Of a stretch of DNA of 64,000 nucleotides, positions 13,043 to 54,715 are shown in pieces. The stretch is from Tricholoma matsutake (taxonomy: Eukaryota; Basidiomycota; Agaricomycetes; Agaricales; Tricholomataceae): positions 310,001 to 374,000 of the forward strand of contig AP026539.1 in the NCBI GenBank assembly GCA_026075535.2, given 5' to 3'. The notes beneath the pieces were generated by a model. That model made no database searches and was not told the origin of the DNA. It saw only the letters and a list, made by a program, of their open reading frames with translations. The position numbers and the translations under genes are program-made. Positions within the stretch are counted from its first letter, which is position 1, and each line of letters opens with the position of its first letter.

Positions 13043-13127
13043 AGGATGGAGACAACCACACAATGACAACAGGACACCAGCACCAGGGAATGCAACAGTG
13101 GAAGACAGTCAGGATGGCAACAACGAC

Positions 13128-15107: not shown

Positions 15108-15197
15108 CTCCTGTGGCTCAACTGGTTAAGCACTTGTTTGGTTTGTCATGTGATTCTTGATCATGAGTTCTAGAGTTCAATCCCTGCTCTGAACAAG
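15108..15197 (+). repeat. tRNA-like segment with A and B boxes (copy 1)
   Basis: TGGCTCAACTGG (15114-15125) fits a polymerase III A box and GTTCAATCC (15175-15183) fits a B box, about 50 bp apart. The acceptor stem does not pair properly, so it is tRNA-derived rather than a working tRNA gene. It lies in the same relative place in all three CTTTACACT elements. Confidence 0.6.
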
Positions 15198-15423
15198 TTT
15201 ATTTTGTAGGTACTTTGTGAAATTCATGAAGTCTGAAGCACTTGAAACTTGTAAGATATCTCAAATTGGCTTTTTATTATGGTATGACTTCAGAGTACTG
15301 AGTCTCACTGGATTCCTGGTGAGTCCATCCCACTGGAGTCCTGGTGAGTCCACTGGATTCCTGGTCTTCCTGGTAGGACTACCAGGATTCCTCCAGGACT
15401 CTGTGGGGGAGTGTAAAGTTCAG

Positions 15424-15924
15424 CATAGCGTGGTATGTCCAGCTTCACATATATTGGCAGCTTATCATCTTGTTTTATTAGGGCATCTTGTTGTACAGCC
15501 TTGTCTCATTATGCATATTGTTCCTACAAATCCCCTTCATTTTGAACTTGCTGATCGCTTCCTCTGCTACATCCAGCACTTCGACATTGTCTCTCAAGGA
15601 AATGGCAGAGCATCTAGCTCAGCTTCAGGCAAAGGCCCATACCCAGACCCAGCATCAGGAATGTATGTTCTTAAATGGGCAAGGTGCATACTTGGGACAA
15701 ATCACACATTACTTGGAGACATCATACCTTCAAACCAAGTCAGGTCACTGGTTGAGCTTACACCACAATTTGGAGAACAAGCAGACTGGTGTTTGACAAA
15801 CATGAATGCCTTTGCCTACTGTAGTGAATTCTTCCTAGATAAATTTTTCATCAAGGTGACCTTTTATGCATTGACACTTGACAGAAAGTATAGTACCAGG
15901 TTGTGGCTCGAACTTGTTCATTAG
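15424..15924 (+). pseudogene. C-terminal fragment of a transposon-associated Agaricomycete protein
   Basis: The plus frame to the stop at 15922 reads His-Leu-Val-Val-Gln-Pro-Cys ... Val-Pro-Thr-Asn-Pro-Leu-His-Phe-Glu-Leu-Ala-Asp-Arg ... Tyr-Cys-Ser-Glu-Phe-Phe-Leu-Asp. I recall this as the conserved C-terminal region (DUF6830-like) of proteins linked with CACTA/Plavaka transposons. The upstream part is cut by the terminal end of the CTTTACACT element at 15423. The transposase core is absent. The name is from recall and the exact family is uncertain. Confidence 0.55.
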
Positions 15925-17680: not shown

Positions 17681-18845
17681 TGATAGGTCGTCTCCTTGGC
17701 TCAAGGACCGATTCACCACTTTAGCATCATTCTAATCACATTGGCTAACTCCTACGATGTCCCAGACACAGCGCAACCCAGTCTATCGATCGTGATATCA
17801 TATCGACCACATTGAAACATCACCAGCGACATTGATCGTATCAAAAGCCCACATCGCACAACCTTAGGACTACCCTCAAAGCCCCTAAGACCCCCCTACA
17901 CGACCATCGAACACCCCTGATCAACTTCAAACAGCCGCAACTGCAATCGAGCATCGTCAAGCATCATTGATCGATATCGAGAGACTATGAGCAACATTGG
18001 GCACTGCCTTCATTATCTAAATGGTGGAAGACCATGCACTAGGACATATTCCAACTCGTGCTCAAACCTGCTGATCATAGGTCAGCCTCATTCCAAATCC
18101 CTATTGTGCACAGAACCCACTGGACGCATTATTGCGAGACTTAGCACAGTTTATACACAAAGGACAGTCTCTTTTAGTTCTTTCCCTTTATTACTCTTTC
18201 ATCATATGATATATATATCTTTCTTGTTTGGATTCCAGTCTCCTTTATGGCCTTGTGCCTTAACTCATATCTTTTGCCTCATGTTCTACACATGTTTCTC
18301 ATTCCATTTTAGGAAGTTTCTTTAAAACATATAAAACTCTGTAGTATCTACTTGGAAATAAAAGAAATTGTCTTTGCATATCATCTCATATACAGTTCTA
18401 AGCATCTGATCAACTTTCTAAAACAATCTAAATCTCTATGGGTTTTCTCAATCAACAAGAAACCTCTGCAATTGTTGCATCCTCAATCCTCCCTCAATCC
18501 TCTTGTCATTAGCACTAGCAACTCTTCCAACACTTCATAGCCATTTGCCGCACCCTTTGTATACTATCAACCTGTTGAAAGGTCTCCAGAATTCACACAT
18601 CAACCATCGATGATAAACTTGTTTGCCATCGATCTCATCGATCACCCTTGATATCGATTGATACTAGATCGGACCACACCAAACACCTTTGTCTCTCATA
18701 GCACTACCTTCATGACTAGTACCAACTGGTCATCTTCCCATCGGTTGGGCCAAGAACATATGACCCCCAACCTTCCTCTGACTCGTTGCAAATATCATTG
18801 ATTGCCTCATTGGCAGTTTAGGTGGTTTTTCCAGGTTGAGTATCA
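17681..18845 (+). repeat. 5' LTR of the second Gypsy element
   Basis: Ends are TGATA..TATCA. It aligns with 27243-28424 along its length. The segment is rich in ATCGAT-like words (for example 17783-17830 and 18610-18665), and CpG sites in one LTR are often TpG or CpA in the other. Confidence 0.92.
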
Positions 18846-18852
18846 TCATTTT

Positions 18853-27242: not shown

Positions 27243-28424
27243 TGATAGGTCGTCTCCTTGGCTCAAGGACCGATTCACCACTTTAGCATCATTCTAATCA
27301 CATCGGCTAACTCCTATGACATCCCAGACGCAGTGTGACCCAGTCTATCGATCGCGATATCATATCGACCACATCGAAACATCACCAGCGACATTGATCA
27401 TATCAAGAGCCCACATCACAAAACCTTAGGACTACCCTGAAAGCCCCTAAGATCCCCCTACATGACCATCGAACACCCCCGATCAACTTTGAACAGCCGC
27501 AACCGCAATCGAGCATCATCGAGCATCGTTGAGCATCATCAATCGATATTGAGAGACTACAAGCGACATCAGGCACTGCCTTCATTATCTAAATGGTGGA
27601 AGACCATGCACTAGGACATATTCCAACTCATGCTCAAACCTGCTGATCATAGGTCAGCCTCGTTCCAAATCCCTATTGCACACAGAACCTGCTGGACGCA
27701 TTATTGCGAGACTTAGTGCAGTTTATACACAAAGGACAGTCTCTTTTAGTTCTTTCCCTTTATTACTCTTTCATCATATGATATATATATCTTTCTTGTT
27801 CAGATTCCAGTCTCCTTTATGGCCTTGTGCCTTAACTCATATATCTTTTGCCTCATGTTCTACACATGTTTCTCATTCCATTTTAGGAAGTTTCTTTAAA
27901 ACATATAAAACTCTGTAGTATCTACTTGGAAATAAAAGAAATTGTCTTTGCATATCATCTCATATACAGTTCTAAGCATCTGATCAACTTTCTAAAACAA
28001 TCTAAATCTCTATGGGTTTTCTCAATCAACAAGAAACCTCTGCAATTGTTGCATCCTCAATCCTCCCTCAATCCTCTTGTCATTAGCACTAGCAACTCTT
28101 CCAACACTTCATAGCCATTTGCCGCACCCTTTGTATACTATCAACCTGTTGAAAGGTCTCCAGAATTCACACATCAACCATCGATGATAAACTTGTTTGC
28201 CATCGATCTCATCGATTGCCCTTGATATCAATTGATACTAGATCAGACCATGCCAAACGCCTTCGTCTCTCATAGCACTACCTTCATGACTAGTACCAAC
28301 TGGTCATCTTCCCATCGGTTGGGCCATGAACATTCGGAACGACTTGCAACCTTCCTCTGACTCGTCACAAATATCATTGATTGCCTCATTGGCAGTTTAG
28401 GTGGTTTTCCCGGGTTGAGTATCA
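27243..28424 (+). repeat. 3' LTR of the second Gypsy element
   Basis: Preceded by the polypurine tract AAGGGGGAGGA. It ends GAGTATCA at 28424, after which the Tc1 transposase frame resumes (Gly-Asn-Ala-Thr-Ile-Ser-His). It is 17 bp longer than the 5' LTR. Confidence 0.92.
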
Positions 28425-29333
28425 TTGGTAATGCCACTATATCCCATATTTGCTCTGAGGATTGACCTGACCTCACCAAATCATGCGGTGGTTGTCCCAA
28501 AAAGCTCACAACTGCCAATGTTAATGTTGAAATTAAACCCTGAGATACATGCTGCATACATGAGGCAATACATGCAGCATACACATGTTACTGCGCTTAC
28601 TGTGCAAACATGTGGTAAACACATTCCTGAGTCATGTGACATCCTTATTACTATGTATATAAGGAGAACCTGTACCATAGTAGGAATACAGTGTTCTTAC
28701 CTCTGCTAACCCTAGCTGTAAGTCTAACTAAACCCCAGGTAGGTTGTAAGGAATGTGTTGTTTCTTCCCCTGTGCAGCATATATAGTCTGCTCCAACAGT
28801 TGACTATACACATTGGATTATTCAGATGGGAAAGGTTGATAATCCACTGAAGCTGCACATGCACTTCAAGATATCGATAATACCCTTTTCTCTTCCCAAA
28901 CTCTTCATCGACATCTTAAATTATGTGGCATGAAACCTGTAGTCGAAGAGAAATGCCCACTACTCAAACCTTGTCATTGACAAGCACGACTGGAGTTTGC
29001 TGAGCGGCATGCAGAGTGGACACTTGAAGATTGGAAAAGAGTCTTGTGGTCAGATGAAGACTAAGATTAACCATTTGGGGTCAGATGGAAGGAAATGTGG
29101 AAAGATAGTGATGAAGGGCTACGTGATAGGTTGGTTGAGGGAACAGTCAAGTTTGCAGGTGAAAATTTGATGATGTGGGGGTGCATGGGATGGGATGGTG
29201 TTGGATATGCCACCAGGATTAAAGGAAAGATGGATGCTGATCTTTATGTCAGCATTATGGAGGATGAACTTCAGCAAACACTGGAGTTTTGGGTGAAAAT
29301 GGCTATACCAAGTACTAATATATATTCAAAAAT
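28425..29333 (+). pseudogene. Tc1 transposase, central part, interrupted by a solo LTR
   Basis: The first stretch (28425-28524) continues the N-terminal helix-turn-helix and carries a Gly-Gly-Cys-Pro-Lys-Lys-Leu linker of the GRPKK type. After the solo LTR (28525-28798) the frame resumes with Gly-Lys-Val-Asp-Asn, then Glu-Asp-Trp-Lys-Arg-Val-Leu-Trp-Ser-Asp-Glu (first catalytic Asp, about 29045) and Leu-Met-Met-Trp-Gly-Cys-Met (about 29168). It ends at about 29333 against the terminal repeat before the second and third catalytic residues. There are several TGA codons and at least one frameshift. Confidence 0.82.
28525..28798 (-). mobile_element. Solo LTR in the Tc1 transposase
   Basis: 274 bp, TGTTGA..TCCAACA, flanked by GTTAA (28520-28524) and GTTGA (28799-28803), a 5-bp target duplication with one change. 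It contains TATATAAGGAG (about 28655). Removing it with one flank copy rejoins the transposase reading frame, which supports the boundaries. TGTTGGAG on the minus strand is typical of Copia-type LTRs. Confidence 0.75.
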
Positions 29334-35693: not shown

Positions 35694-37011
35694 CCCCCAT
35701 ATTCTGGCTGGACTGAGGATGCTGGGGACTTATCTATGACAGGTTCTGCTGCAAACATTTATGTGGCATGAGATCTTTCATGCCTATATGCAACTAGGGG
35801 TAGGTGTTGTTAATGTAGTACTGTACCGATGACTAATCTATTTACAATATATTTTAATTGTGAAACCATCACTGCAGTAAGGCCACTTGGCTTGGCTGCA
35901 AAACATGATAACATGGGTTTGCCTTGTTTGTCACATTGCACATATCTCCAAATTTCTTTGCAATTTTCACTACTATGACAAAAGCAGCTTGGATGACTCC
36001 TGAGCAGCATGCCTGGCTTTTCAACCTGCTTGCAGGGTTTCATGAAGCACAGGAGAGTAAAACAGTTCCCACCTTTCTTGCTAAAGTTTATGAAGACTTT
36101 CATGACAAATGGCCTGCCAATGCCCCATCTGCTAAGGAGATAGTGTTTGCAAAAGGAAATGAGGAGCATGCAAAACTCCTCAAGCTCAAGAAAAGTGAAA
36201 AGGTAAGTTGTCTAACATTCATATACTTTTGTTTGGCATATGATAATATTGGGCAGCAAATTCACGATTGGATTTATAACAAGAGTTGTGGTTTGAGTTT
36301 GTGTTCTGGCACTCAAAAGGTTCTAAATCTCAAGAGCACTTCATGACTATTACATCACTGGCAAGTATTTGTGAAGTTATATGGAGAAGAACTTAAACTG
36401 AAGTTCAACACTGAGTCAGAAGCACATAAAGAAGCCAATCCAACTAAGGAGTTTACACATAATGATCACTTCACCTTTCATAACCAGAAGATGCAGGAAT
36501 GGTACAATTCAGCCGATGAAACAACCAAGGAAAAGGTAGAAGAGTTTCAGCAGGAGTATAAGTCCATGGATAGTGAAGGCAATAATTCCAATTGCATACT
36601 ACAAAAGTAAGTGTTGCAAATCTGGGCCATCATGACTTGAATTATATTCTAATTTGCAATAGCCATATTGACATGCTCCCTTGTACAATTGAGGATGCTG
36701 CCAAGAATATCGCCAGGCAAACAGGTTGGGCTTGTACAATCATTGTGGGAGGACTGATGCCTCAAGAAGGAGGCTGAACTTTACACTGCCCTACATAGTC
36801 CTGGAGGAATCCTGGTAGTCCTACCTGGAAGACCAGGAATCCTCCTGGAATCCAGTGGGACTCACCAGGACTCCAGTGGAACTCACCAGGACTCCAGTGG
36901 GACTCACTGGGACTCCAGTGGGACTCACCAGGAATCCAGTGAGACTCAGTACCCTAAAGTCATACCACTTTGGACTTCATGAATTTCACAAAGTACCTCC
37001 AGAATAAACTT

Positions 37012-37099
37012 GTTCAGAGCAGGGATTGAACTCTAGAACTCATGATCAAGAATTACAAGACAAACCAAACAAGTGCTTAACCAGTTGAGCCACAGGAGA
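37012..37099 (-). repeat. tRNA-like segment (copy 2)
   Basis: Reverse complement of the copy 1 segment with few changes: B box GTTCAATCC (37023-37031 on the minus strand) and A box TGGCTCAACTGG (about 37081-37092). Confidence 0.6.
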
Positions 37100-37683
37100 A
37101 TTATTAACCACCAATATAAAAGTGTATTTATCTTATCCCCTCAAACTCAAACTTGGGTATTTCTCTCTCAAAGCTCACAATTAAGATCAAATAAAATTTA
37201 TTAACTACATCCCTTGCATTGGACACAAGGGATACACCATTAATTACATAAAAAAAAACCTCCCCCACACAAGGTGCAAGGGGGAGTCCTACAAATATAT
37301 ACATATGAAACTAATCTCCCCTTGCATTCAACATGAGGGAGCACTACAATTATAAAGAAAAAGAAAGAAAAACCCCTCACCCATGTAAAACGTGGGCAAG
37401 GGGGAAAGTATTACCATAAATAAATGAAAAAAACTGCCCCATGCAAAATGCAGGGGCAGCCTGGTGAGTCATGCCTGTTGTCCTGTCCCCATCATCCTGG
37501 GTGCTGGGCCTTCATTGTTGCTGTCCTTGTTGTTGCCATCCTAGGCATCATTTGCATGCTGCTCCTGGTCGCCATGCCCTTCCTGGTTGTCATTGCTGTC
37601 CTGGCCATCTCCCACTGTTGCATTCCCTGGTGCTGGTGTCCTGTTGTCATTGCGTGGTCATCTCCATCCCCGTAACCCCCCTT

Positions 37684-37709: not shown

Positions 37710-39639
37710 AGCAGTGCTGGGTGCTGGGTCATGCTTGTTGTCTGTTGTCCTCCCATCCTTGTATTGCCACCCCACTGCTCTTGTCATTTTGGGTCTTGCC
37801 ACCCTGTTGCTCTTGTCATTTGCATCTCCTCGTCTCCATCTCCATGGTCCTCATTGTTGCTCCCTGAGTCCTGGTGAGTCCTGATGAGTCCTGATGACTC
37901 CTACAGAGTCCTGGTTCTCTTATAGAGTCCTGGTTAGTCCTACAGGATTCCTGGTTAGTCCTCCCAGATTCCTGAGAGTCCAAGTCCTGGGGAATTCCTG
38001 GGATAGTACCAGGAAGAGCCTGATTTACCAGGAATATACCAGGACTGAACCAGGAATCCCACTGGAGGAAAAACAGCCAGGAATGCAACAGTTGGTGAAC
38101 AATAGCTGTGGCAGGGATAACCAGGATTATGTGGGGCAGTGTAAAGAGCTTGAAGGAGGTGCCATTCAAACTCTTGTGTAAGCGACTTGACCCATCATTT
38201 CTTGTGAATCTAACCTTCAAATTGATAGCTCAAATGAAGGAACTACATTAATAGGTCAATTATTGGCCCAGTTTCTGGGAACCTCATATAACAATTATTT
38301 TCTATCTCACTTCAATAGGTTTCTTGAAGCTGCTTATGGTGACAGTCTTAAAAGCATCCAGTATTCAGAGCTGATTGTTTGCAATAGATAAGCAGACTTG
38401 TGATTCTTGAGCATTGGAAGGTCTCTCACATGAAGCCACTTCTGCACCTGCTGATGTCAATACTACCCCTTCTGCATCTACTGTGAAACTTTCTGATTAT
38501 GAGAATGAATGAGCAAGTAATATTGCAAGAAATAATATGAACTGGGATCAGGTAAAGGGGCTTTGAATTTGATCAACAAATCATCAAAAAAGGGCAAGGA
38601 CAGGAAAACAAAGCAAGCAATATGTATTTGCTTTGACTATGAGGCTAATTCAAATGAAGAGCTGCTTCTAATGCTGGAGACATGACAAGGGCACTGTTGC
38701 CTGAGTTTCCACCAACTTCTAATGTTGTAAATTCAACCCAATCAACTGTTATGAAGGCAACCAAAACCATTCTAAATGCAGCATTGCTGATATCATCCTC
38801 TGCTTCCACACCTTCCAGTGATGATACCATTGTACCCAACTTTGTACAGCCAACAAAGTAGACAGTGCTGTCATTGCTATTCTTCCTTTCTTGAAGAAGA
38901 TTTCAGATAAAGAGTTTTGGGTCAATCTATTGAAAAATTGGGTTGTGTTTGAGACTGAAAATCCACCAATAACTGTAAGGGCTAGCTAATTACCAATTCA
39001 CAATCTAATAGTAGCAATGTCTAGTGTTTGCCTACCAAGAATCGACCTGGTGAGATTGGAGCATGGCTGAAGAATGGCCAGCGGTTACAAGCCAATCAAA
39101 TGCCACAAATGAAGAATATCAAGGATTTTGGCAATCACTAGTTTGCATGGTGGAAGGCTATCCAGCCAGGCTGGCAGGGTGATGAACTCTCTCAACTTAT
39201 ACCTTCTGACACTTCATGGTCACAGCTGTTATGTGGTGGAGTGAATGGCTTTCTTGTTGTTATTCTTGCTTTGGCTTGGTGGATGCAAGGTAATACTTCT
39301 TCTGGTGATTCTGATTCACCTCGCCTTAAAACAGCAGTGGTGGATGTTAGTTGGACTTTGGTACAGCTAAAGATTGCCTTGGATGCCAGAGAGGATCAGG
39401 GGGAAAAAGCGAGGGATTGATGACACTGAAAATGGGGAATTGCCTGCCACAAAAAAGGATGTGGTGTCCTTTCTTTTAAATCAAACTAACATTTATCAGA
39501 TCTCGAACTACTCATCCACATTAATTATACTTTGTGGTATCCAATAGACTAGAATTATAATCACATTTGTTTGGCAATGATTTCTGCTATGACTTAAAAT
39601 AGAGTGAAATACTATTTATTCATTAGCAATGGTTTACAA

Positions 39640-39860
39640 TAGTTCAGATATTATTTACAAGCATTAACAATGAGTCCCAGTACAATTTACAATGATTAAC
39701 AATGTATTACAATGGGTGAAATAGGCACCAGTACCATTTACAATGATTAACAATGGGCCCCAGCACTACTATATTTACAATGATTAACAATATATTACAA
39801 TGGATGCCAGTACCATTTGCAATGATTAACAATGGGACCCAGCACCATTCACAATCAGTA
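39640..39860 (+). repeat. Imperfect tandem repeat of ACAATGATTAACAATG units
   Basis: Five or more copies of a unit of about 30-55 bp built from TTTACAATGATTAACAATG followed by variants of GGRCCCAGCACCA or TATTACAATGGATGCCAGTACCA. It lies just upstream of the Helitron coding start and may belong to the Helitron 5' region. Confidence 0.7.
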
Positions 39861-39943
39861 ATTTACACTCCAATGTAACAAAGCAGTACAACATAGAAAA
39901 TGAAGTCATATTTTCAAATGATACACTAGCCACCACAAATGCA

Positions 39944-41327
39944 ATGCTGATAGGTGGAGGAAAATTGCATATTACATATGGAATGTTGGCATCATATCTA
40001 CTACCAAACAGTCATGATTCAAATATTGCTGACAGTACCCAGTATCAATTTGTTTCTCACATGCTCTACTCGAACACAATAGATGCAGCTGATCAGAACT
40101 ATGATATGGTGGTATGCTGTATGCCACTTGGTGCAATTATAAATCACCTTACACTTGGCCAAGCAAAGTCTGTAGCAAAGAGCCACAGTATATTTGTGGC
40201 AAACAAAGGACTGTTAGGGGCTATACTGCATAGTCTCACTGTACATTTATGTTCAAAATATTGTTACGACAATGTCTTTGTCTTTAAACCAGTTAACAAA
40301 CTGTATAAATCTTGGAAGGAAGGCCTTACCAGGGTGAAACTTAGAAAATATCAAACATACCTTTATCAGCATAAAAAGTCTACAACAACCTTTAAACAAG
40401 CAAAAATGGTGCAGAATAAGAATAATTACAAAAACCAGAAAGCGTGTAGTTTTCCGCCAGCTCCACCAAAAGACAAGTTTCTTCACAAGATCATAAGCAG
40501 GTTTTGTAGCGACACACATCCTTCTCAGTTTGAAGAGATGGGATGTGCAGTTTGTGGTCGACTGACCTTGAAAAAAGAAAGCATACCATTAAAAGATGTC
40601 AACTGCAATCTTGATCCTCTCAAATGAAGTGGAGTAACTTCAATCGAGCAAACATGTGAGTCACAAGAGCAACAAGAGATTGAGGGCCCTATAATTGATT
40701 ATCATTGTACTGGTATGTGTACTACATGTCATAAATATTTGGAAAGGGGAAATTGCCCTTCTATGGCATTGGCTAATGGCTTTTGGATAGGCAAAGTGCC
40801 TTCTGAACTTACTGGTTTGACATTTGTGGAAAAAATACTTATATCGCGAGTATGCCATAATAGATGCATTGTTTGACTTCAGGATAATATAAGATGAGAG
40901 CAAATGCAATAAGCTTTCAAAATCCCATTCCCAAGCTGTATAATGTATTTCCACCTCCACTTGAAGAACTTGATCAGGTTTTGGCATGCATATTTACAGG
41001 ACCATGTCAACCAATGGAAAAAGATATTCAACAAACACCTTTGCTTGTTTGACATAAACAAGTTGGAAAAGCACTTCAATGGTTGAAGTTGAATCATATT
41101 GATTACCATGACATTGAACTTTCTGAAGACAACTTGGATAAATATCCAGAGAACAGAACACCAGTGGTCATTGATTACTGTCAGTCAATCTTAAACAGGG
41201 ACAAGGAGGCCATGAGCATGCATGATAATGAAGAAGAAGAAGGTGTTGAAAGGGGTGATTGTTCATTTGTAGGACATGGACTCACTGGAGAAGAATTTTC
41301 AGAGATGACACTTAAAACCATTAAAGC
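39944..41327 (+). pseudogene. Helitron Rep/helicase, N-terminal third
   Basis: The plus strand encodes the front of a fungal Helitron protein: a Cys-Ala-Val-Cys-Gly finger (about 40545), Cys-Thr-Thr-Cys and the Leu-Ala-Asn-Gly-Phe-Trp-Ile-Gly ... Leu-Ile-Ser-Arg-Val motif of the DUF6570-like domain (40720-40880), then Ile-Phe-Thr-Gly-Pro and Leu-Asp-Lys-Tyr-Pro-Glu. There is one frameshift near 40890, and TGA codons at 40625, 40876 and about 41050. The coding stops being Helitron-like at Thr-Ile-Lys (41325). The continuing part (Ala-Leu-Glu-His) is on the minus strand from 51956: the two were separated by an inversion. Confidence 0.82.
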
Positions 41328-43638
41328 GAAGGATGAATTTATCGCACAGTTAATTATCCAAACAAACAAAAAACATACCTGCAATAAATCCTCAAAATCT
41401 CTTGCAGCCAGTTTCTTCATTGCGGATGCATTGGAACTGAACTGCCAGATTGAAGTCCCAAACGTAGGAATTTGTCAATACCTAAAGCTCTTATCAATGC
41501 ATGACTCTGAGAAATCTCAAGCATGCTAACCATGAATTTAATTCTTGAATAAGATCGTCACCTACTGCATAGAGAATTCAAATTAAATGGTTGAAAGTGT
41601 TTTTCCAGACCCCAAGTTCAAATTCATGAAGCAAGTTGGGAACAAACATTGAAAAAAAATTGAACCGAAAGCTTTGTAGTCGCTTGGAGAATGCATTCTA
41701 GTGAAAAGTTATTTAAGTGAATCTATTAATACATTTCACTCACATGAGTCGGCACTTCAGATCTTTCTTTAAGAATGTTCTCCACTCGAGTACTTGTGAC
41801 GCCTGCCCCCTTGTCAAAGATAACCTTGCATGCTGCATCAATCCAGGCAATCCGCAAAGGTGTGTCAGTCTGTTCATGATCCCGACGTTGCTGATCGACA
41901 GTTGTTCCAAGACCACTGACATGGACTTTCTGGATCTCACATCGTGGACAGAGACATTGCCCCAGATTTCGGATTGTTGCCAGAAGAACTCTGATGACAT
42001 TAGATAAATTGAACATAGCATGCTGTCATTAAAAACCCACTTTTCTGGATAATCTGCAGAATATGTGAAGAACCGAGGATAAAATCGCTGTAAGATGCCA
42101 TCAGGGCACTTGATCACGATCCCATGTTCATAGGCTTCCATGAACTCGTTGTTAAGAATTAATTCCCAGATTGCATGCATTAGCTCCCGTTTCAAGTGTG
42201 TAAGGGTTGCCTGAGACGCAGTAGTACCAAAGTTTTCCTTGTAGAAATCCTGAATCGTATCGGGGAGCTATAAAAAGAGTCAGATAGATCAGAAAAATAC
42301 AAGAGCTGGTCATACTGAGGGAATGTACGTGAGGTGATGCGCAGCAAATTGTGATGGTTTTGCGTGCTGGTACTTCGACTGGTTCCCAAGAAAGAGATAA
42401 ATCGGCCATAGTGACACTTGCCCGAAATTTGCCAGGTGCATCAAATCAGACCATACCATAATTGCAGCAACAACCCGCTCCAGATCACTTGGTTGTTGCT
42501 GCAGTTTTTCATGCTCCTGTAAGAAAGTGTCCGAGTTGTACAGATCTGTCACGACTTGCTCCGGCTCACTATTGGGAGTAGGTTTCCAGAAAAGATGAAA
42601 CGGTGTCAAATGATAAAATTGCACCTCTGTGTCCTCGAATGCAGTACGAATGACCTCCAACAGGTCACGATGCCAAACACCAGGTATCTCGAATGTCAGA
42701 GCAACCACTTCCTTGAGCTTTTGCTTATCAACAGGTAAACGAATCTTCACAGAAGATTCCTTCCAACCAGCCTCTCCTGAAAATGCAGCTTCATCCTCCA
42801 TCATATCAAGGCGGCGCAGCTCTCGAGCCACACTGAAACCCTCGAGATCACTGACATTGAAGTCATCCTGAACAAGGACCTCCTTAACGAGACGGTCCAG
42901 CTCCGCAATGGACTTTTGGTTTGAACCAGAATAGAACCAGTTCATCAACCAGCACACCATCGCATTGAGAAACGGATGGTAAATGTTCTTGGTGGCAGCA
43001 TTGAACATTGCACCCATGCTGGTCCACCAGTGTTGTCCAGATTCCATTGATGGTTTTCCAGGAATGTCATAGATGTTGTCTAGATCTTGATCAGCCTCAG
43101 GATCGGTAGTGGGGAAGGTGATGTATTCGCGATATAATCCAAAGTTATCACATTCTGTTCTAAATAAGATGGGTTCAGGTGTATGTACCGAAGGAGATGG
43201 GGATGGGGATGGGGAGTGAGTGCCGGCAGGTGGGTTACAATCTTGCACAGGTTCGGGAACATGGGGGACAGCTGTGCGGGATGATGGCACAAAATCCTCA
43301 AAACAATTCGGCAGGAACCTGCGACGACCAGACTGGGTTGGCAGCACCTCTGGACAACTTTGAGTTGCTGTTGGGGTAGGAGGGTCAATCTGAGGCTCCT
43401 TGACATCCATAGGGATTTCTTCAACCTGTACAGAGTCATTAGATCCTAACTGCAGTATTCAGAACTTATTACTCACCTCAACCAGCACCAGATTTTTCTC
43501 TGCCTTCCTACGTTTTACAGCCTCCTCTCGCTTCCCAACAAGATCCAAGGTCCACTTGCATGCTGCTTGACAGTTAGAACAGTGCCTCCCTAGAGTACCA
43601 TCATCTCGGAAAGTATGCCCACAGGCACAGCAGACCAT
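41328..43638 (-). pseudogene. Plavaka (CACTA-like) transposase, N-terminal part
   Basis: Exons 43638-43477, 43425-42316, 42267-42041, 41990-41744 and 41697 onward join in phase with introns of 51, 48, 50 and 46 nt. The N-terminus is a Cys/His finger (Cys-Cys-Ala-Cys-Gly-His ... His-Cys-Ser-Asn-Cys). The transposase core is marked by Trp-His-Arg-Asp-Leu, Leu-Phe-Trp-Lys-Pro-Thr, Trp-Ser-Asp ... His-Leu-Ala-Asn-Phe-Gly, Leu-Phe-Leu-Gly-Asn-Gln-Ser-Lys-Tyr and Cys-Pro-Arg-Cys. A TGA follows His-Leu-Ile near 41600, and there is a frameshift near 41530. The last exon ends Asp-Phe-Glu-Asp-Leu-Leu-Gln, with a donor GTATGT at 41378 whose acceptor is now at 51959 on the other strand. Confidence 0.85.
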
Positions 43639-43649
43639 GTTGATTGTCG

Positions 43650-45745
43650 ATGGTCGGTCACTACTTGATTGTTGATGGTCGGCTACTTGATCAATCAATA
43701 AACAAATGTGTGAGGCACGTGACCAGGAATCTTGAAGGAATCACAGGGCACGTCGTCTTTTTCTTCCCTCCCACCACTATCTCCCCCTCATCTTCTCATT
43801 CTATTCCATCCTCCAGATCCAAGTCATCCTCGCAATCCTCATCTCACAATACAAACAGCAAGAAATGGAAGAGTGCTGCTGACAAAGATAAAGGTAGTAA
43901 AAAGCACCAAAAGTAAGTATCATCTCATTCCATTCTTGCTTGTACATTAATTACTGTTAGGCTGGATGCAGAGTAGGACTCCTTCGCAGATTTTAAGGAT
44001 TTCGCAAGGTGGATCATTCGCAGTGAACACCTGTTTGTATCCTGGTACACCATTCTGGATGTTGGACTCAAAGGTGGATGCTGAGGATTACGACGACGAT
44101 AATTGGTATGTATTGTGTCATAAATATATTTATCTTGCTCACTCGCCCTTTTATTCCAGGTTCATGGAACGATACCGGATCGAACTGGACATTTACCATG
44201 GACTACACAAGAAATACCCATGATTTGCAAAGGATATCAAGAAAATGAAGAGGAAGGCCAAGTATGAGAAGGAAATGATTAGTCTGGTATGCATTCCCTC
44301 CTCATTTGCATGCATATAGTCACATCTCGGCAGTTAAGAAATGCATCGTGAGGAGCGTGCTCGGACAATTCCAACAGCTTACTATCAGATGGCCTGGAAT
44401 ATGTCAGAGCGAAGTGTGGGCCACTCAATCCAGCGATCCTTGCCCGACAGCCCAAGGCCAATGTTCAAGGTTTCAACCATCCCATGCTTGCCCGACTTCT
44501 CTGCCCTATTGACTTTCTGGCATCATTTGACGAAGATCCAGAAAGGTGTGGCATCTTACTCGTTTGCCTTCATGCTGACTACGTTTACAGGTTTCGCAAC
44601 AAATTGGTGAATGGCTCAATAAAAGTCCATAGCACGGACTTTCTGGTGTGCCTCTACAATGAAGCGCTGATTGACAAAGAAGACCCTAGTTCTGGACTTA
44701 TGCGAAGCGATCTCTTAGTTGTGGTACATTTTTCAATTTTTGTTATTACTTAACTATGACATTAATTTCTCATCCAGTCTTTCAAACACATTTTCATTGG
44801 GCCGTCAACTGCTCTGAAGGATGGGCCGGGTGGCAGCAAAGCGAAGAGGGGTCAGGCCCAAAAAAACAACATGAAGAAACCTATGGCAGGTTAAATCACT
44901 TATGCTGCGACCCAGGTAGGTTCTCTGTTAGTGTAGGATACCTTGCTAATGATGTTTTTTGCATATAGCTCCGATGGTGTCTCAGTGCCTCAGATGACTG
45001 GCATCTTGGAAATGGAAATTGGAATGCTGAGGAGTTTTACGGCGCTCTGATGCAAGCATTCGGGATCGATATCTGCCTCAAGGATGATGGCGAGGGTGAC
45101 AATGATGAAGGTGAAGATGAAGACAAAAACGACGATGAGGAGATGAGACAGTGGGCAAAGGGAACCATTGCATGGTTCACTATGTGTGTTCATCACCACT
45201 CTCTCATTGTTTTGCACTGATACTCTTTCTAGGCAAGTATTCAACAATAAATCAGCTATGGAGCCTACTGCCCCTGTCTGCAGTTCGACCCTTGATGCAC
45301 TCCTGGCAAAGTGCAAGGCACAAAAAGCAGCAAAGAAGGCTGCCACCAGAACTTCACAGAAGGAACGCCAAACTGCATTGTCTCCTGGCCCCAGCCAATC
45401 CAATAACGAATGTGATGCACAGAATACAGTCTCATCACTGAGTAGGTCTCACTCTCGTAATTCCAGGGGTAAGGGCCACAACAAGGATTTGGACGAGAGC
45501 ATGACAGAGCCCGAGACAGAACCTGAAGGCGACAAACAATGGAAGAAGAGATCAGTGTCTAACTCCAAGGGTAGGGGCCACAGCAAGGACTTGACCGAGA
45601 GTGCGATGGAGCCTGAGATGGAGCCTGAAGGTGACAAATGATGGAAGAAGAGATCAGTGTCTAACTCCAGGGGTAAGTGCCACAACAAGGATTTGGACGA
45701 GAGTGCGATGGAGCCCGAGAGTCAGATGGAGCCAGAGAGTGACTG
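43650..45745 (+). pseudogene. DUF6698-like gene, divergent from the Plavaka gene
   Basis: Transcribed away from the Plavaka start with the two coding starts nearly touching (43638 minus, 43650 plus), so they would share one promoter. An Arg/Ser/Lys-rich N-terminus (to 43910), then introns near 43911-43960 and 44105-44159, lead to a region with Phe-Lys-His-Ile-Phe-Ile-Gly-Pro-Ser-Thr-Ala (about 44780) and Trp-Asn-Ala-Glu-Glu-Phe-Tyr (about 45020). These fit the DUF6698 family as I recall it. An acidic stretch and a 34-residue tandem repeat end the protein. In-frame stops and frame changes (for example 43974, 44221, 45639) indicate decay. Function is unknown; such genes are common beside Agaricomycete transposons. 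Confidence 0.6.
45459..45745 (+). repeat. Three 102-bp tandem repeats in coding sequence
   Basis: Units start at 45459, 45561 and 45663 (the last partial), each encoding 34 residues with Ser-Lys-Gly-Arg-Gly-His-Ser-Lys-Asp-Leu and Glu-Pro-Glu-Gly-Asp-Lys. The exact 102-bp period keeps the reading frame. A TGA at 45639 lies in the second unit where the first has CAA. Confidence 0.85.
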
Positions 45746-46280
45746 AGCACAGGTAAGTTGTGATGGTTGTATCACTGTCATATTCATCTCATGCGGCTTT
45801 ACAGGTTATTATTCTCGCTTTCCTGGACTCCTCGATGCTTGCCACTGCAAATCCCTATGATACAACAAATTTGTCTTGATCTCTTTGCTTCACTTGTCCT
45901 CGATGATTCTCTGCTTCACTCGTGATTGCTCATGCTAGGCTTTTTCTTTGCTCAACCTGCTGTGCTCACTGTTCTCGATGCTCTCTTTTGCTGATTGGAC
46001 ACCTCTGACCACTTACGATGATCCCCACCTGTCTTACCTGTAGTAACTATTGTGCCAATGAAATTGCTTTGAAACAATCTGTATTGAATATTAAGAAGAA
46101 ATGAAATCCTCTCCATTGAGATGCCTTCTTCTCATACATGGGACTAGGTTGAAAACTTAATCCCATGTTTTTGAAATGTTGTAGCCAAGTTTGCCACCTT
46201 CCCATTTTGTCGCCAACTTACCTCAATGTTGGGCTGAAATTTGCCAACATGTCACTTGTCGGTCAAGTAATTGTCGTGAG
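45746..46280. other. Gap between DUF6698-like gene and Helitron end
   Basis: Holds CTTTGCTTCACT/CTTCACTCGT-rich sequence (45870-45960) and the inverted pair CATGGGA..TCCCATG (46137-46167), which could be a Helitron 3' terminal hairpin read on the minus strand. I could not place a CTRR end with confidence. Confidence 0.35.
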
Positions 46281-49200
46281 CTATTCAAATCCATAGGTCT
46301 CCCACGTTTTCTGCAAATGACCATGTTTCGTAGGTATGTAGCGCAAGGCATTTGTAGGTATACTTAATGCGGTTTTGCTGATGTACTTTGTCACATTTGC
46401 TTCTGGTTGTCCATCATTAAACCAGACATTTTTGTCTGATATAATTCTACATGTAAAATGAAAGTTTCCAGAATAAACAATACCTTTCAAGGGAAGCATT
46501 GTATCTTTGTTATTAGCACCTTTTATTCAAACACTTTTGCTTACTGCTATTCCAGTCACATTCAAACTGAACATAAGTAGCTCTGGAGTGACTGTAAAGT
46601 TGCAAATAATATGCTGTTTGGATTGACATTCACAGCAATTGTCTGTAGTTTCATTTTGCCAGTTCTGAAACCAATCATTAACAGATTTCAAGTTACTGCT
46701 CATTACATGCATGAAATTTTCTGGAGGTTCAAGATTCTCTTGCTTGCTGCATGTTGTACACTGAAGTTTGGCATAGCACACAGATTCATCTCTAATCATC
46801 AACTGTCTTGCCAATTCAGCTACATTGGTACCAACTTGTCCATAGGGAAATAATATATTGTCTTTGTTATGCAGCCATTTTCTAACATCATTTCTGGCAG
46901 CTTCCAAAGATTCTTTACCCTGAAGAACTTCTCTATAGTTGTAGGCAAGTCCTTCTAATGGGGTACTCAACCAGCAAAACCATTTTGTCCATTTTTTTGG
47001 ATTCTGGATCCATACGTCACACAGAATAGAGAATATAGCATCATATGCACAACTATAATTTTCTGAATCCCATGTAATACCCGCTGGAGTATCTTGTGCC
47101 AGAATAAATGTCAATTTGGCTTTCTTTTTTTAGAGCATTCATTTATCAGCTCTTAATCAGCTACCTTTAGCCACAACAAATGTATGTACTGAAATCCTTT
47201 ATTTTTGTTTGAAACTTTGGATTTTCATTGTGTTCAAGTACATTACCATGCTCTTTTTTCTTGTCTTTAATAACTTGCCAAGGACTATCTGTGACAATAT
47301 TAAGTAAATCCATAGGATCTTCTGAAGTCCACTTCAATTGTTTTGATACATTGGCAGGTACATATTCAGTTCCCTTATATAATTGAAACTGACAAATACA
47401 AGCATTACGCAAATTGTCATTGATATTGCTAGGTAAGGTACCTTCATATGACAATCTAGTTATTTCATCTAGAAGTTCTAGCTCTCTAAATTCTTGTTGA
47501 AGATATCCTGATGCTCCACACATAATTTTGTGTGGATTGAAACCTTGCACAATTACAGTGCCTTCTGCAGTTGAACCTCTGGATAAACATGTGTAATAAG
47601 ACATATGATCATGACAACTACTCAAGTCAACAACATTGATATCTTGAGTCTTTCCTTGGGATGCATAATCTGTCATTGCAAAGTTGGGCAAAATTGGTAC
47701 TTGTAAATGATTGATTTTTAATGCAACATCACTTGGGGTGACACACAAAACAGATATTGATAACTTTGTTGGAGGAACAACATTTTCAGGTAAACCATCA
47801 ATCTTAATTGTCTTTGAAGGCCAATCAAGTTTAACAAACAATGTATCAAGTACAAGTTGACCATGTGGGCCCATAACTGACTGCCAGCTAGTGATATGTC
47901 CTTCTTGGCCTTTTGTAATACACAATTCAGTTCCTTCATTGTTGCATATCATTACTGGCATTCCCATACAAAGAGACAATTTGCCAGGTACATGATCAGA
48001 TGCTGAATGTCTCAAATTCCAGAGAACATTTCTTAGCATTGGGTTTATATCACCATTATTAAGTGTACACTTTTTTTTCATCCATTTTTTTTCTATAGCA
48101 GGATTTTCTTCCTCTCCAAACTGGTCTACAGAATAAAAGTGTGTCAATGTTTGACCAGTTTGCTTTGCAAATCGCTCTGAGCCAAGTTGGTTGATACAGT
48201 CTTTTGGTGCATTGAATGCTGTAATGATAGACAAGTTACGGTATTTATTGTCTGCCAATTTTGGCTGACCTGGACCCTTACCAGCAATTTGGGATCTCAG
48301 AAATTGTATATCCTCTGAAGTACAAGATGCATATCACATATTCTCAAGTGCAGCCCTTAGCTTGGCATCTTCTTTACTTTGTTTTTTTTTGTCGCATATT
48401 TTGTTGTAGAATTACTATGGTTGTCACTTGATGCCACAATGCTTTTCCAATCAATGCTTGTTGTCCTTTTAATGTCTGTGATGCATCAACAGATGTACCA
48501 ACAGCTTTATTGCTAAAAGAATGACCTCCAACCAGTGACAATTGTCCAAAATCACCCACAAAAATCATGTTGATACCACCAAATGGTGTGTCTCCTATGT
48601 TTCTTGCCTTGGCCAATTGAGCACTGATCTTATATAAATCATGACAGGCTACCATTGATACTTCATCCAAAAATATATAGTCAACACCATCAAGCTGTGC
48701 TTTGACTTGTGCTATAGCTGTATGCTCATTTCTGATTCTGACCATATCACCATCTTTTGTACTGTTTATACCAAGTACAGAATGGTAAGTTAAACCATTC
48801 AACAATGCAGCAGCAGATCCTGTTGGAGCCAGAATCATAATTCTGTGAGACTCATTGCGTTTTTCAAAAAGGGATATTAATGCATTGATAACCTGTGATT
48901 TTTTGGTACCTCCCATTCCACCAAGATACATTTTTAGTTGACTGGGCTGTGACATGGTTGCATGATTAGCGACAATACAAAAAGCTCATTTTTGTTCTGT
49001 ATTTAACTTGAAGTCTTTAACAGTATTGTTGATAATCTTTTGGTTATCAGCTGTTTCTGCTTTGAAGTTTTTCCGAAGATAACTAATATTGTCTACAACA
49101 ACATCATTATAATTTCGAGATGACAATGGTGTTCCTTCTTCATTTACAGGAAGATGTTTTCCTCTATCAGCTAACACAGCATCTTTTGCAGTTTTCACCA

Positions 49201-51956
49201 AGGCATTCCATTTACTACCAGCCATATTTACTTGTATATCCATGCCTTTTGAATCAATATGGCTAATAGCTTGTGGACAATCATCCAACCAACCAGCATT
49301 TTGAACAACATTCTCCATTTGATTCATTTGATCAAGTTTTTTCATATGTTTCAATGATGGTTCAACATATGTGCTCTCCTCTGTAATAATATCAAGTGGA
49401 TTATCATCATCATATTCAACAAATGAATTTTGTTTCAGATCTTTTAGAACTTCAGAAGAAGCCCACCATGGAAAGGACCCACCATCTTCTTCATCTTTTT
49501 TCAGTTTGGCAGAATAATCATCTCGAGCATCCATACACTCATAATGAAGATTAAAGTTTTTCATTAGTTGTTGTTGCCTTGGTGTAAAATTATGAACATG
49601 AAATGTTCCGTCCCATGTACTATCAACAGATTTCAAATATTTTCCACTTCGCCATGGTTTGAACAATGTAAGCATCATTAAACAGTAATATTCTCTATTG
49701 CCTTGATCACATCTTGGTAATGAACCACCAAGAAAATTGGGCACTATATTGTCCTCATCAATACAGTGAATGTGATGTGTTTGGAATTGTGGATGAGCCT
49801 TCATAAATTGATGTTTCTCTTCCTCATCTTCATACAAGTGCTGAGGATTTCCATCACCAATATTTAATTCATCACCAGTTTCATCATCTACATCTTCATC
49901 GTTAGTTGGCTTATCAAGTGAATCATAATCAGTATAATCACAATTAGTTTGATCTGATCCTCCACCTAATTGAGGAATATTTAAATCAAAAACCTCATTA
50001 TCGTTAAGAATGTCAAGCTCATCAATTTCATTATCAATCATTTCTTTGTCATATTAATTTGTTACTTCATGCTTTTTGTCAAATTCTGCTTGCTGAACCT
50101 TTGACTGCTTAGTTTTTGTAGATTGTCTGATCCAATCATACAAGCTGAGATCATTGTATATGAATGGTCAATGCATGTAGTCTTGAACATTTGACAAGCC
50201 TACATATTTGCCCATATTTTTGTTTAAAACAACTTTGGCTGGCTTGTCGTCTTCTTTTAGTGATTCCCAGGCATTTTGGACTTCTTGCACATAATTTCTC
50301 CAGTAGAAATTAACAAACTTGTGGCTGGTATAATGATCTGGATTTTCTAACAAATACATGCAAGCCATGGGACTGCCTATTTCCATCTTTGCTGTAAGTG
50401 CATTAACAATCTTTGTCATTAATGACCTTGACATGCTTTTATGGTCTGTAGAATCAGTAATAAGCTCAGAGTTTCAATCAAACACACGTTGAATTGTATC
50501 AAATATTGAATATGTCTTCAGGCCAGGCTTGGTTACATAATCAGAGACATAAGCTATAATAGCTTTGATTGCAGTTCCAGACAGAAGACTTGTTGCAACA
50601 AAGAACATAAGTTATCAATGGGGTAAAAGTATTCATCCATGATTCACCCTTTTTAATCATCAATTCACCTGTCAATGGATCAACCATGGTTTGCTCTACA
50701 ACATCTCTTGGAAACTGCGCTCTGCATTGCCCTTGCTTGTTCAAACAACCTTTTTTTATATCATTTCCATCTTTATCTTTAGTTGTCATGCAGCAGCTGT
50801 GAACATTTGAATGCAAGACCAGATTGTCTACTTTTTGTGAAAATCATGACCACCAACTCTTGAGTTTTTCACAGTTTTCACAAGAGTCACATCTAGTTTC
50901 ATGGCATCACTCTGGTGGAGGTTCTGGCACTGTTTTAGTGGGATCAAGATATTCAGAGTCATTATGTTGTGCTTCTTTGACACCTTGGTTTACATCAGCA
51001 GTGTGGCCATTGAAAAATTCACCCTTGTATATGGACTCTATATATTCAACCATCTTCCATTTAAAATCTGAGGATTGATCCATAATTTGATCACGAATCT
51101 CCTGAGGTGACAATGCATTCTTTACCCAAATTAACATATGTAGATGTAGTGTCAATCGACCTTGTTGTTCCACAGTGCCATAATATGCAGAAGTTTCTCC
51201 AAATAGTCCAGGATGCTTTTGTCCTATGCCTAAAACATTTTTTATAAATGCCTGACACATAAAATCAAAAAATCTTGGTGCAGCAGCAGGATTATTGGCA
51301 ACAAGATGGAATGTATTGTCAGGTAATCTTATATCCGGTTTGAACTCCTCATCTGTGTCAGCAAAGTAAAGACCTATTGGATGCTTGTTGTCCGCAGGTG
51401 ATAGCATAACAAACCATGATGGTGCTCCAACATATGACATAAGAGACCAGATCTCATTCCGCATATATTTTTTGGAAGCTGCAGAACCTTTGACATGACC
51501 ACTGACAACCTCCAGATCACCCATTAGCTTGTAGCATAATTTTTCTGCATCTGTTTCTGGCTTAACATGAATGTTCTGACTTAATTGAGTAGAAATGTCT
51601 GTCAAAACATTCAAGTCAAGATTGTGTAATTGGTCTGTCACTTGTGAGAAGTAAGCCTTATCTGCAGTTAAATATCCTCCAGTGGTGCTTTCTTGTATTT
51701 GTTCATGGTTTAAAGCAATAAGTGCGAATTCTGGATCCATTTGAAATCACTTGTCATAATACATCAGAAGATGTTTCTTATGTGCTAGCCCTGATAAAAT
51801 GCCTTGATGATGGCTGTTACCAATTCCACCTAGTCCATATGGAAATAGCCATGGCATCATAGATGGAAAAAGTTGTGGATTTTTGTATATCGACTCAGGT
51901 TGAGATGCATGACTGACAAATGCTATTTTTCCATCCTTTGTAAGATGCTCTAAAGC
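46281..51956 (-). pseudogene. Helitron Rep/helicase, C-terminal two thirds with a protease-like tail
   Basis: Reading down from 51956: Leu-Phe-Pro-Tyr-Gly-Leu-Gly-Gly (51840), the Helitron-like N domain (51740-50907) with the Rep motif His-Leu-His-Met-Leu-Ile (about 51130), a Pif1-type helicase (48955-47500) with Walker A changed to Gly-Gly-Thr-Lys-Lys-Ser, Leu-Asp-Glu-Val-Ser-Met, Phe-Val-Gly-Asp-Phe-Gly-Gln-Leu and Asn-Met-Arg-Gln, helicase motif VI (about 47590), and a C-terminal domain (47114-46281) starting Asn-Tyr-Ser-Cys-Ala-Tyr-Asp-Ala, which looks like a cysteine protease/deubiquitinase type. Three frameshifts (near 50500, 48380-48260 and 47140, two at T runs) and several TGA codons show decay. 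It was once continuous with 39944-41327. Confidence 0.87.
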
Positions 51957-53786
51957 TCAGTGTTCAATTCCGGTATTCGAGGACCTACTTCCAAACCAAC
52001 ACCACAATATCCTGATCACGGAAATGCTCTTCATCTTCTGTACCTGGCACGCTTACACCAAACTCTGGCTTCACATTAGTTCTACACTTGAGGCCTTGGG
52101 GAAAACAACGCAAGTGCTTGGGGCATCACTTCAGGAGTTTGTCAAGGTCATATGTTTGTGTTATGCTACAAAAGAGCTGCCAAGAGAGGAAGCTGCACAA
52201 GTACACTGTAGGGCCAATGTGAGTGCAAAGGGAAAGGGAAAGGCAATGGCAACATCTGACAAACAGAATTCAGCACGTGGGCGCTTCAACATGTCTACGT
52301 ACAAACTTCATGCTCTAGGCGATTATGTTGTGAATATTCAGTTGTATGGACCGACAGATAATTATTCAACTCAAGTGGTCAGTTATTTTACCTGCTGATT
52401 ATTTTTAACATTGAATGAAGATTGCAGGGTGAGCTTGAACACCGCCACATCAAGCGTTTCTATGCACAAACGAATAAAAGGTTCATGTTTACCTGACAAG
52501 TAAGCAAACACCACCGGCGGCAGCAAATTTTGCAAAAGATTTGAGAGAGATACACAGGTACAACAGTGGCAAGGGAGCAGGACCACACTGACACTTGGAG
52601 GAGATTGCGGTACCAGTTGACCCAAGTGAGCCCTTGCCCTCAATGTCCCCTGAAAAACACCACCACATGTCTGTGTCTCGTCAACATCCTGTCAATATTT
52701 TGCGATGGATGGATGAATGCTCTGATGATCCAGCGACCAGGGTATGCATTTCCCCTCCTTCATTGCACTATACTAATCTCAAGTAGACATTTATTCTTGA
52801 CCTCAAATCACATCTCTTAGCACATCTACTCAACCAGCCTTTCAGTGATGACCATGTCTACTCAGATATTGAGCTAACAATGGTCAAAATTGTCAACAAC
52901 CAAATTTACAACCACAAGGTTCTCGATGTGAATTATACAACTTATGATATGCGGCGTGCACGAGATTCAATCAACCCTCGGACACACCCTGATATTATGC
53001 TTCTCTCAGGTGAAGATCATGACGATTCAGACCCCCATCCATATTGGTATGCATGGGTGCTTGGGATATACCATGCAGAGGTCTGTCATGATCACCCAAA
53101 TGCAGTTTCATCTGATGTTTAGGTATTGGAGTTCCTGTGGGTACATTGGCTTGGTCAAGATGCCGACTACAACACAGGTCAATAGGGCATTGTCTACATC
53201 AAGTGGGGTTTGTGCCAGATGACCCCATCAATCTTGATGATCCCACACAGGCAAGTGGTGCATTCGGCTTTATTGATCCAGCAGAGGTCATCTGGGGTGT
53301 ACACCTCATTCCTGCATTTGCCCATGGAAAGACAGATGGACTTCTTGGACCATCAATTGCACGCCCACGGAAGGATGAGGATCAAGACTGGCAATACTTC
53401 TACGTTAACATGTATTTTTTTTTCTTTGACTGAGACCTTCTATCTGATTACGGTCTAGGTTTGTTGATCGCAATATGTTCATGTGTTTCTGAGGGGGGGG
53501 GATTGGACACAAGGGGATGCTTGACCGGATTGCTGGTTTACGAAACAAGGAGCAGCCACCTTCCACTGCTGACCAAATGAATGAGGATCTGGATGCTGAG
53601 GATATAGAAGGATTAGGGGAGAATGATGAGCAGGAGGAAGATGAGGAAGATGAGGAAGATGAAGAAGACGAGGAAGATGAGGAGGAAGAATCAGACGAGT
53701 CTAATGAGAGTTTGATTGAGTTAGATCTGGATGGAGAGGAAGGAGGCGAGGATGAGTATAATATCTTGGGCTTTGCGGCTTTTTGA
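51957..53786 (+). pseudogene. Plavaka transposase, C-terminal part
   Basis: An acceptor AG at 51959-51960 opens Cys-Ser-Ile-Pro-Val-Phe-Glu-Asp-Leu-Leu-Pro, which directly continues the minus-strand exon ending at 41379. Further exons carry Thr-Trp-His-Ala ... Leu-Trp-Leu-His (about 52060), Tyr-Lys-Leu-His-Ala-Leu-Gly-Asp-Tyr-Val (52298), Gly-Glu-Leu-Glu-His-Arg (52430), Val-Asn-Tyr-Thr-Thr-Tyr-Asp-Met-Arg-Arg (52926), His-Leu-Ile-Pro-Ala-Phe (53305) and an acidic tail to 53786. Introns lie near 52378-52427 and 52741-52785 and at 53411-53458. TGA codons and frameshifts are present. The protein is a CACTA-related cut-and-paste transposase typical of Agaricomycetes. Confidence 0.82.
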
Positions 53787-54383
53787 AATACTGTATTGGA
53801 CAATATAATCTTGTCTCCAGTTTCAATATGGTGTCCAACATGGGGCATATAGGCAAACTCGTGCGCAACCTTGGATCACAATCCCTGTTCTTTGCCATGT
53901 TTTAGAAGTATTGCAAGCCCTGTAAAAACTTGTAGACAAAGTTGGCTGGTATCACAAACATGTCTCAGGAATCCAAACTATCTTACATGTTTTTGTCAAG
54001 GATGCAATGCCAATAAAACTTATAATCAGAATGGAATTAAATATCATATTTGCATGAAGATACACAAGTTTTCGAGTAGATGGAATGTGAATAGCTACAG
54101 GTTTCATACTTCATGCAAGTAGGTAATTGACGCAAACCAATGCATACTTAATGCGATTTTGCTGATGTAGGTCATATAACAGATTTCTCTGACAAGATGT
54201 TTATGACTTGTAATAACAAGCATGCAGTACTGACAATACATGCCAAGAAGTAATTAGCGTAGATAGTTTTGGCTGAATGTATAACTATTATATTAGCCTG
54301 TAACAATTAATTTCATATTGAATGAATAACATAAAAAAATTAAGGACTCGTACCTGCCAGTACTGGCCCTCCCTCACACCCCC
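53787..54383. other. No gene; small Helitron-like scrap
   Basis: TACTTAATGCGATTTTGCTGATGTA at 54144-54168 resembles the Helitron C-terminal coding at 46357-46384, so a Helitron scrap lies here. The inverted pair TTAAGGACTCGTA/TACGAGTCCTTAA flanks 54341-54408. Nothing else was recognised. Confidence 0.4.
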
Positions 54384-54715
54384 AAGTTATGAGTTACGAG
54401 TCCTTAACCATGTTAAGTAAGACTTGTTCTTCATACCGGGAATAGAGGAAAAATTCAGTGTTATGAGAAAAAGATTTCCTTTTTCCCCACAGTCAGTAAG
54501 TTCTGTGCAACCATTACAAAATTACTGACTTTACTAACCATGGGACTGAAAAATTAGCCGAGATGCAGATTTCGAGTATAAAAGGAAAATTTCCATCCAG
54601 CTATCTAAATTACCGGTAACCTACAGTAATTGACTTCAATACAATCCATTATTGATAGTTTCATTACAAACTATTATTGATCAGTTACAAACTTTGTATT
54701 GAAATTTTGAAATTT
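54384..54715 (+). repeat. Dispersed repeat, copy 2 (also at 12741-13042)
   Basis: Matches the first copy over about 300 bp including the TATAAAAG box (54576). Compared with copy 1 it has short insertions near 54440 and 54610. It is probably a solo LTR. Confidence 0.65.

Follow-up and report, generated by a model that had tools for sequence, protein, structure and literature searches.

Elements at the locus

The window analysed here is a 64,000-nucleotide stretch of chromosome 2 of Tricholoma matsutake (C2:310001-374000), and contains a Helitron and a Plavaka transposon that have both been split by an inversion of about 10.6 kb. An earlier note, based on the letters of the window, had proposed this inversion from four broken ends of reading frames. 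The proposal was followed up using copies of both elements within one assembled genome (assembly TMA_r1.1; 161,040,721 bases in 13 contigs) and proteins from other fungi, and is borne out by both.

Helitrons have 5'-TC and 3'-CTRR termini and insert between A and T. The element in the window carries the combination of a Rep domain (Helitron_like_N, PF14214; E 2e-28; 50907-51746, minus strand) with a PIF1-type helicase (PF05970; E 1.4e-20; 48374-48985, minus strand) that marks a Helitron, and its body is covered to at least 94% in one piece by at least seven other copies. The left fragment shows a weak match to DUF6570, below the curated cut-off. After re-inversion, the domain order is the same as in Helitrons whose Pfam labels read DUF6570, Helitron_like_N and PIF1 helicase, although DUF6570 is weak here; the window copy differs from these in lacking upstream sequence at 39869, in carrying a Plavaka insertion near its 3' side and in being split by the inversion. 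Loci L057-L059 share about 1.8 kb of Helitron further upstream, whereas the window match begins only at 39869, and none of the 30 other matches among the 32 listed, which include L057 itself and the window, was judged by eye to end at this point. A repeat at about 38152-39861, with more than 20 other copies that are mostly 84-91% alike, abuts the truncation. Further downstream, the sequence at 54384-54711 is about 79% similar to that at 12737-13043, and is also found after the Helitron match in L060.

The Plavaka transposase domain (PF18759) was found in two open reading frames on the minus strand, at 41740-42267 and 42310-43458 (E 2.2e-13 and 3.3e-08), both matches lying above the curated cut-off, and the outer Plavaka frame at 51913-52398 had no family match in Pfam. 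The 5' part of the element is present at full length in at least four other copies. PlavakaB elements are defined by CATCA..TGATG termini and target duplications of 2 or 3 bp (PMC12730594). The window copy has the PF18759 domain, these termini and a 2-bp target duplication, in common with the PlavakaB elements described in that source from Agaricomycotina, and differs in being split by the inversion and in carrying stops. The coordinates of all parts are given in Table 1.

Table 1. Parts of the Helitron and the Plavaka element in the window, with the inversion and its junctions
Feature	Position	Strand or orientation	Remark
Helitron upstream fragment	39869..41329	plus	ends ..TIKA in frame; truncated at 39869 relative to other copies
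AAAGC of the earlier note	41323..41327; second copy 51952-51956	plus (first copy)	Helitron sequence, not junction
Left junction	41329..41330		Helitron (..AAAGCGA) joined to reversed Plavaka intron (AGGATG..)
Inverted segment	41330..51958, 10,629 bp	relative to ancestral order	paralogues of both elements contiguous at both edges
Broken Plavaka intron, first 49 nt	41330..41378	minus	donor GTATGT; remaining 2 nt are 51959-51960, plus
Plavaka 5' part, inside inversion	41330..46383, 5,054 bp	minus	terminus CATCA at 46383
TA target duplication, Plavaka 5' side	46384..46385	minus	empty site has one TA
Helitron body, inside inversion	46384..51958	minus	Helitron_like_N (Rep) and PIF1 helicase
Right junction	51958..51959		reversed Helitron (..CTAAAGCTC) joined to Plavaka intron end (AGTGTTC..)
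Plavaka 3' part, outside inversion	51959..54167, 2,209 bp	plus	terminus TGATG at 54167
TA target duplication, Plavaka 3' side	54168..54169	plus
Helitron downstream of Plavaka insertion	54170..54348 (at least)	plus	L060, L061 and L062 matches continue directly from the 46384 side

Edges of the inversion

Paralogue alignment places the breakpoints at 41329|41330 and 51958|51959, and turning 41330..51958 round again joins all four broken ends. The edges first proposed (41328..51956) were therefore off by 2 bp, although the inversion itself stands. The Helitron frame runs on the plus strand and resumes on the minus strand as had been described, with true ends at 41329 and 51958 rather than 41325 and 51956. 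The Plavaka exon ending ..FEDLLQ (minus strand, end at 41379, donor GTATGT from 41378) does join the exon beginning CSIPVFED on the plus strand, but the latter starts at 51961, and its present acceptor was created by the inversion: the original acceptor was TAG, and the CAG at 51958-51960 is new. Re-inversion likewise rejoins the intron, at a length of 51 nt (41378-41330 plus 51959-51960) instead of the approximately 55 nt suggested.

Since the paralogue halves are contiguous at exactly these edges, the segment was turned with no base lost, gained or shared, and the computed slide ambiguity at the edges is zero. The earlier note had also pointed to AAAGC at both junctions as possible microhomology, or to a palindromic AAAGCTTT as a joining site. 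The two AAAGC words are present, but each lies 2 bp from its break, and they appear on both sides because the halves of the Helitron stretch AAAGCGAGAGCTTT look alike when flipped. Paralogues at the former Helitron join read AAAGCGA|GAGCTTT, and some AAAGCAA|GAGCTTT, leaving no base shared; there is no AAAGCTTT at the joins, and this candidate site was rejected.

Contiguity of the joins in paralogous copies

The four pieces (two Helitron, two Plavaka) were aligned to fetched copies, with L001, L009 and L029, which are the window itself, left uncounted. In Plavaka copies, the counterparts of window positions 41330, where the inner piece ends, and 51959, where the outer piece begins, are adjacent bases; in Helitron copies the two halves adjoin at the counterparts of 41329 and 51958. 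The Plavaka join is crossed by 24 of 31 fetched loci (L002-L008, L030-L053), representing 17 separate places. The distant loci L049-L053 align on one side, and L008 and L047 do not align, their matches being without that part. The Helitron join is crossed without a gap, over the 60 bases shown, by 11 close loci of the 19 fetched (L010-L028), and by the more distant L019, L020, L022 and L023 with one gap 13 bases downstream; L024 and L025 align on a single side, and nothing in L021 or L027 matched.

When the 201 bp around each junction were searched against the genome, 34 matches were returned on the left and 31 on the right, the window included. None of the 33 other matches crosses the left junction, with 12 Helitron matches ending at query positions 98-100 and 21 Plavaka matches starting at 101 or later. 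Similarly, none of the 30 other matches crosses the right junction, where none of the 13 Helitron matches extends past query position 101 and 15 of the 17 Plavaka matches begin at 102-104, the other two beginning one base early, at 101. When both match lists were paired, the places matching both sides of a junction were contiguous in 17/17 Plavaka and 12/12 Helitron cases, supporting the earlier claim that one event accounts for all four broken ends. Paired matches stop two bases apart at six of the 12 Helitron places and at one Plavaka place (C9), shortfalls that are substitutions in ungapped alignment among those copies fetched. Four further Plavaka matches in the left search, and one Helitron match in the right search, were one-sided or short of the junction. 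As no other match crosses either junction (0/33 and 0/30), chance as the source of the four matching ends is excluded on the strength of these alignments, and all four ends are confirmed as genuine. The four pieces, which the earlier note had allowed might never be adjacent in homologues, are adjacent in paralogues at both joins.

The joined proteins, for which a search had been proposed, gave a concordant result. With an E-value limit of 1e-20, the joined Plavaka reading (849 aa, exons picked by eye) matched 251 proteins. Of the 120 relatives listed, 116 span FEDLLQ|CSIPVF, each aligning over 20 residues or more to either side, and in 58 of these 116 no gap falls within 15 residues of the join; Lyophyllum shimeji and Agaricus bisporus, both mushrooms, are among the named relatives in the list. 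The joined Helitron reading matched 487 proteins. Of the 120 listed, most of them from metagenome sources, 119 align across the join and 112 span it without a nearby gap.

Nesting of Plavaka within the Helitron

The Plavaka termini are CATCAGCAAAACCGCATTAAGTAT at 46383 (minus strand) and ..CTGATG ending at 54167 (plus strand), each with TA directly outward. Copies of the region 44900-46900 switch at 46383|46384, those on the left being Plavaka copies and those on the right Helitron copies, and most matches start or end at exactly this point. In all three other Helitron copies fetched there (L060, L061, L062) the site is unoccupied and reads GACAAAG-TA-GGTCATATAAC, with a single TA. As the empty site keeps one TA, Plavaka inserted into the Helitron with duplication of TA, and the alternative that the two elements are merely neighbours was rejected. 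In the one other Plavaka copy for which both ends were available (C10: L054, L030), the flanking dinucleotide is GA at either end.

The halves of the target site are now 7.8 kb apart and in opposite orientation, and only re-inversion yields one Plavaka of 7,263 bp with its termini facing correctly. The nesting, which the earlier note had missed, constitutes a second, independent proof of the inversion, and it implies the order of events, namely Helitron, Plavaka insertion and, finally, inversion. From the copies in this one genome the ancestral order, the nesting, the succession of events and exact edges without loss or microhomology can all be read.

Re-inversion had been said to restore both elements. 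It does restore contiguity, but it leaves Plavaka inside the Helitron, which remains truncated at its 5' side, and there are stops in both elements. Stops interrupt the joined Helitron frame at residues 163, 443 and 464 and occur throughout from residue 565 on; the Plavaka exons carry at least two. Two stops in each element, including one Helitron stop that immediately precedes the joined reading, were compared with other loci, where the codon is mostly CGA, CAA, CAG or TGA, with single cases of GAA, TGG, CGG and TGC, counted by locus rather than by distinct place. At one Plavaka stop, CGA was found in just one of 18 loci. The codons at these four stops are compatible with C-to-T decay at CpG, and CpG hypermutation has been reported for repeats of the T. 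matsutake genome (PMC6980582).

Mechanism of the inversion

The inversion was very probably a cut-and-paste event, in which two double-strand breaks in a Helitron carrying a nested PlavakaB were resolved by end joining. One break would have fallen in the Helitron coding region and the other in the Plavaka intron 10.6 kb away (..CATCCT|AGTG..), after which the intervening piece would have been rejoined backwards by end joining, with no base lost, added or matched. The breaks may have been blunt and simultaneous, and sealed by classical non-homologous end joining (NHEJ). The outcome is two split, dead transposons, and no host function is claimed. This reading is favoured because there are neither inverted repeats nor end duplications at the edges, by the footprint rules given in PMC7584159, which describes NHEJ cut-and-paste inversions without end duplications. 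The event is balanced, with no duplication or loss at its ends. No inverted repeats were found at the edges: the longest word shared in inverted orientation measures 9 bp when 200 bp around the breaks are considered, rising to 10 and 11 bp at 600 and 1500 bp, respectively. The inverted duplications that mark staggered breaks were also looked for, and no base is duplicated at either edge; the footprint thus fits neither staggered breaks nor non-allelic homologous recombination (NAHR). Compared with the Drosophila cut-and-paste inversions of PMC7584159, the present event spans just 10.6 kb, and its edges can be placed with single-base precision since both breaks lie in transposons with many copies, which act as a built-in outgroup.

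Three observations weigh against this interpretation. Firstly, zero microhomology does not by itself identify a mechanism; it is unremarkable alone because 56% of random break pairs at the same distance also show none (27% show one base and 11% two; 20,000 draws). Secondly, the Helitron copies L010, L013 and L014 are 83-84% identical to the left half and 93-94% to the right half, from which it follows that the histories of the Helitron family are unequal along its length. Nevertheless, these three copies are contiguous at the Helitron join, and the closest full-length copy of both halves is one and the same, L011 (96.5% left, 96.7% right). Thirdly, the closest copies of the inner Plavaka part (L034, 95.5% over 1,500 bases; L006, 95.1% over the whole) differ from that of the outer part (L031, 95.8%), a weak counterpoint because the distances are nearly equal.

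Replication can switch templates and thereby produce inversions. An inverted order made by fork stalling or microhomology-mediated break-induced replication would have a precedent in a Helitron copy on C11 (L028), which carries a 1.03-kb inversion with 3 bp of microhomology, yet in the window both edges are balanced, free of microhomology and without duplication or deletion of a single base, and such an origin is very unlikely. The chances are slimmer still that the segment was cut by Plavaka transposase or Helitron Rep at an end that is internal or cryptic, and then rejoined. Both breaks do lie, with clean edges, inside elements coding for DNA-cutting enzymes, but no element end coincides with either inversion edge: the Plavaka break is not at a CATCA terminus, both Plavaka ends are elsewhere in the window, and there is no TA or other duplication at the edges. 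A cryptic Plavaka end at the break was rejected by eye, the edge having no match. At the window event, there is no positive evidence for either of these two origins.

It was also considered that the assembler flipped the segment and that the real chromosome is uninverted. TMA_r1.1 is a telomere-to-telomere HiFi/hifiasm assembly of a genome with 71.6% repeats and 1.05% heterozygosity (PMC10211490), and the inversion is about as long as its read N50 (10-11 kb), so that most reads would fail to span the whole segment. However, the window is free of N, the edges are without an inverted repeat that could mislead an assembler, and no other match in the genome crosses either junction. In addition, chromosome 2 is listed as a single contig in both of the separate sample assemblies, A6 and B11 (PMC10211490), and a base-exact reciprocal flip in unique sequence would not be expected of assemblers. 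An assembly error is consequently held to be highly improbable. NAHR between inverted repeats can practically be dismissed, despite the repeat content of the genome and a flipped Helitron piece elsewhere (C5:7596676-7642514) between large insertions sharing flanking sequence, as shared inverted words reach only 9-11 bp within 200-1500 bp, with none at the edges, and the repeats would have to have been lost later without trace, which is very unlikely given base-exact edges.

Flips in other matsutake transposon copies

Among the 65 fetched loci, of which 20 had Helitron and 33 had Plavaka matches at the thresholds applied, both orientations of one element occur in L028 and L063. Internal strand flips were grouped by eye and the counts are lower bounds: at least three of 20 Helitron loci at ≥90% identity (the window, relative to its left part, C11 and C5) and at least two of 25 Plavaka loci at ≥80% (the window and C2:6507243-6508138). 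L028 (C11:6886624-6890373) has a balanced Helitron inversion of 1,028-1,034 bp with 3 bp of inverted microhomology, lossless relative to L013 and L014. In L063 (C2:6507243-6508138) the flip covers the terminal 502 bp of Plavaka and also takes in approximately 93 bp of sequence without a match, and approximately 33 bp of the element are missing at the inner edge. The flips in the window and on C11 are thus lossless, and that on C2 involves loss. At C5:7596676-7642514 (L018, L064, L065), a 1.4-kb Helitron piece (7623194-7624635) is flipped between the large insertions, and this flip looks repeat-mediated. At C5:7642469-7661323, pieces of the upstream Helitron part follow one another in mirrored order, the arrangement that an inverted duplication several kb long would give. 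That small inversions, some barely processed at their ends, recur in matsutake transposons, with the window event perhaps recent enough to vary between nuclei or strains, is a speculative and rather doubtful proposition.

Relation to previous work

No account of the window event was found in the literature on the matsutake genome and its transposons, on Plavaka with Helitron or inversion, or on inversion footprints. Inversions between chromosomes of T. matsutake and T. bakamatsutake have been reported (PMC10627285), and that work concerns inversions in the same genus, but it is a comparison at chromosome scale whose main text does not contain the words breakpoint or Helitron. The event in the window belongs to a known kind of mutation, of which it is a tidy and closely read example, and alone it alters no known gene. 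Its wider interest lies in the use of nested multi-copy transposons as a built-in outgroup, with which ancestral order, event order and edges can be read from one genome; applied genome-wide, this would yield spectra of loss and microhomology at inversion edges in a fungus whose genome is about 72% repeats.

Other features of the window

An open frame of 1062 aa at 7151-10339 presumably resembles a Ty3-type retrotransposon polyprotein. Pieces of an inverted repeat, totalling about 0.9 kb and 84-96% alike, lie about 22 kb apart at 13044-15424 and 36773-37669. Direct repeats at 17681-18846 and 27243-28425, which are 9.56-9.58 kb apart and 90-100% alike, could be the long terminal repeats of one element.

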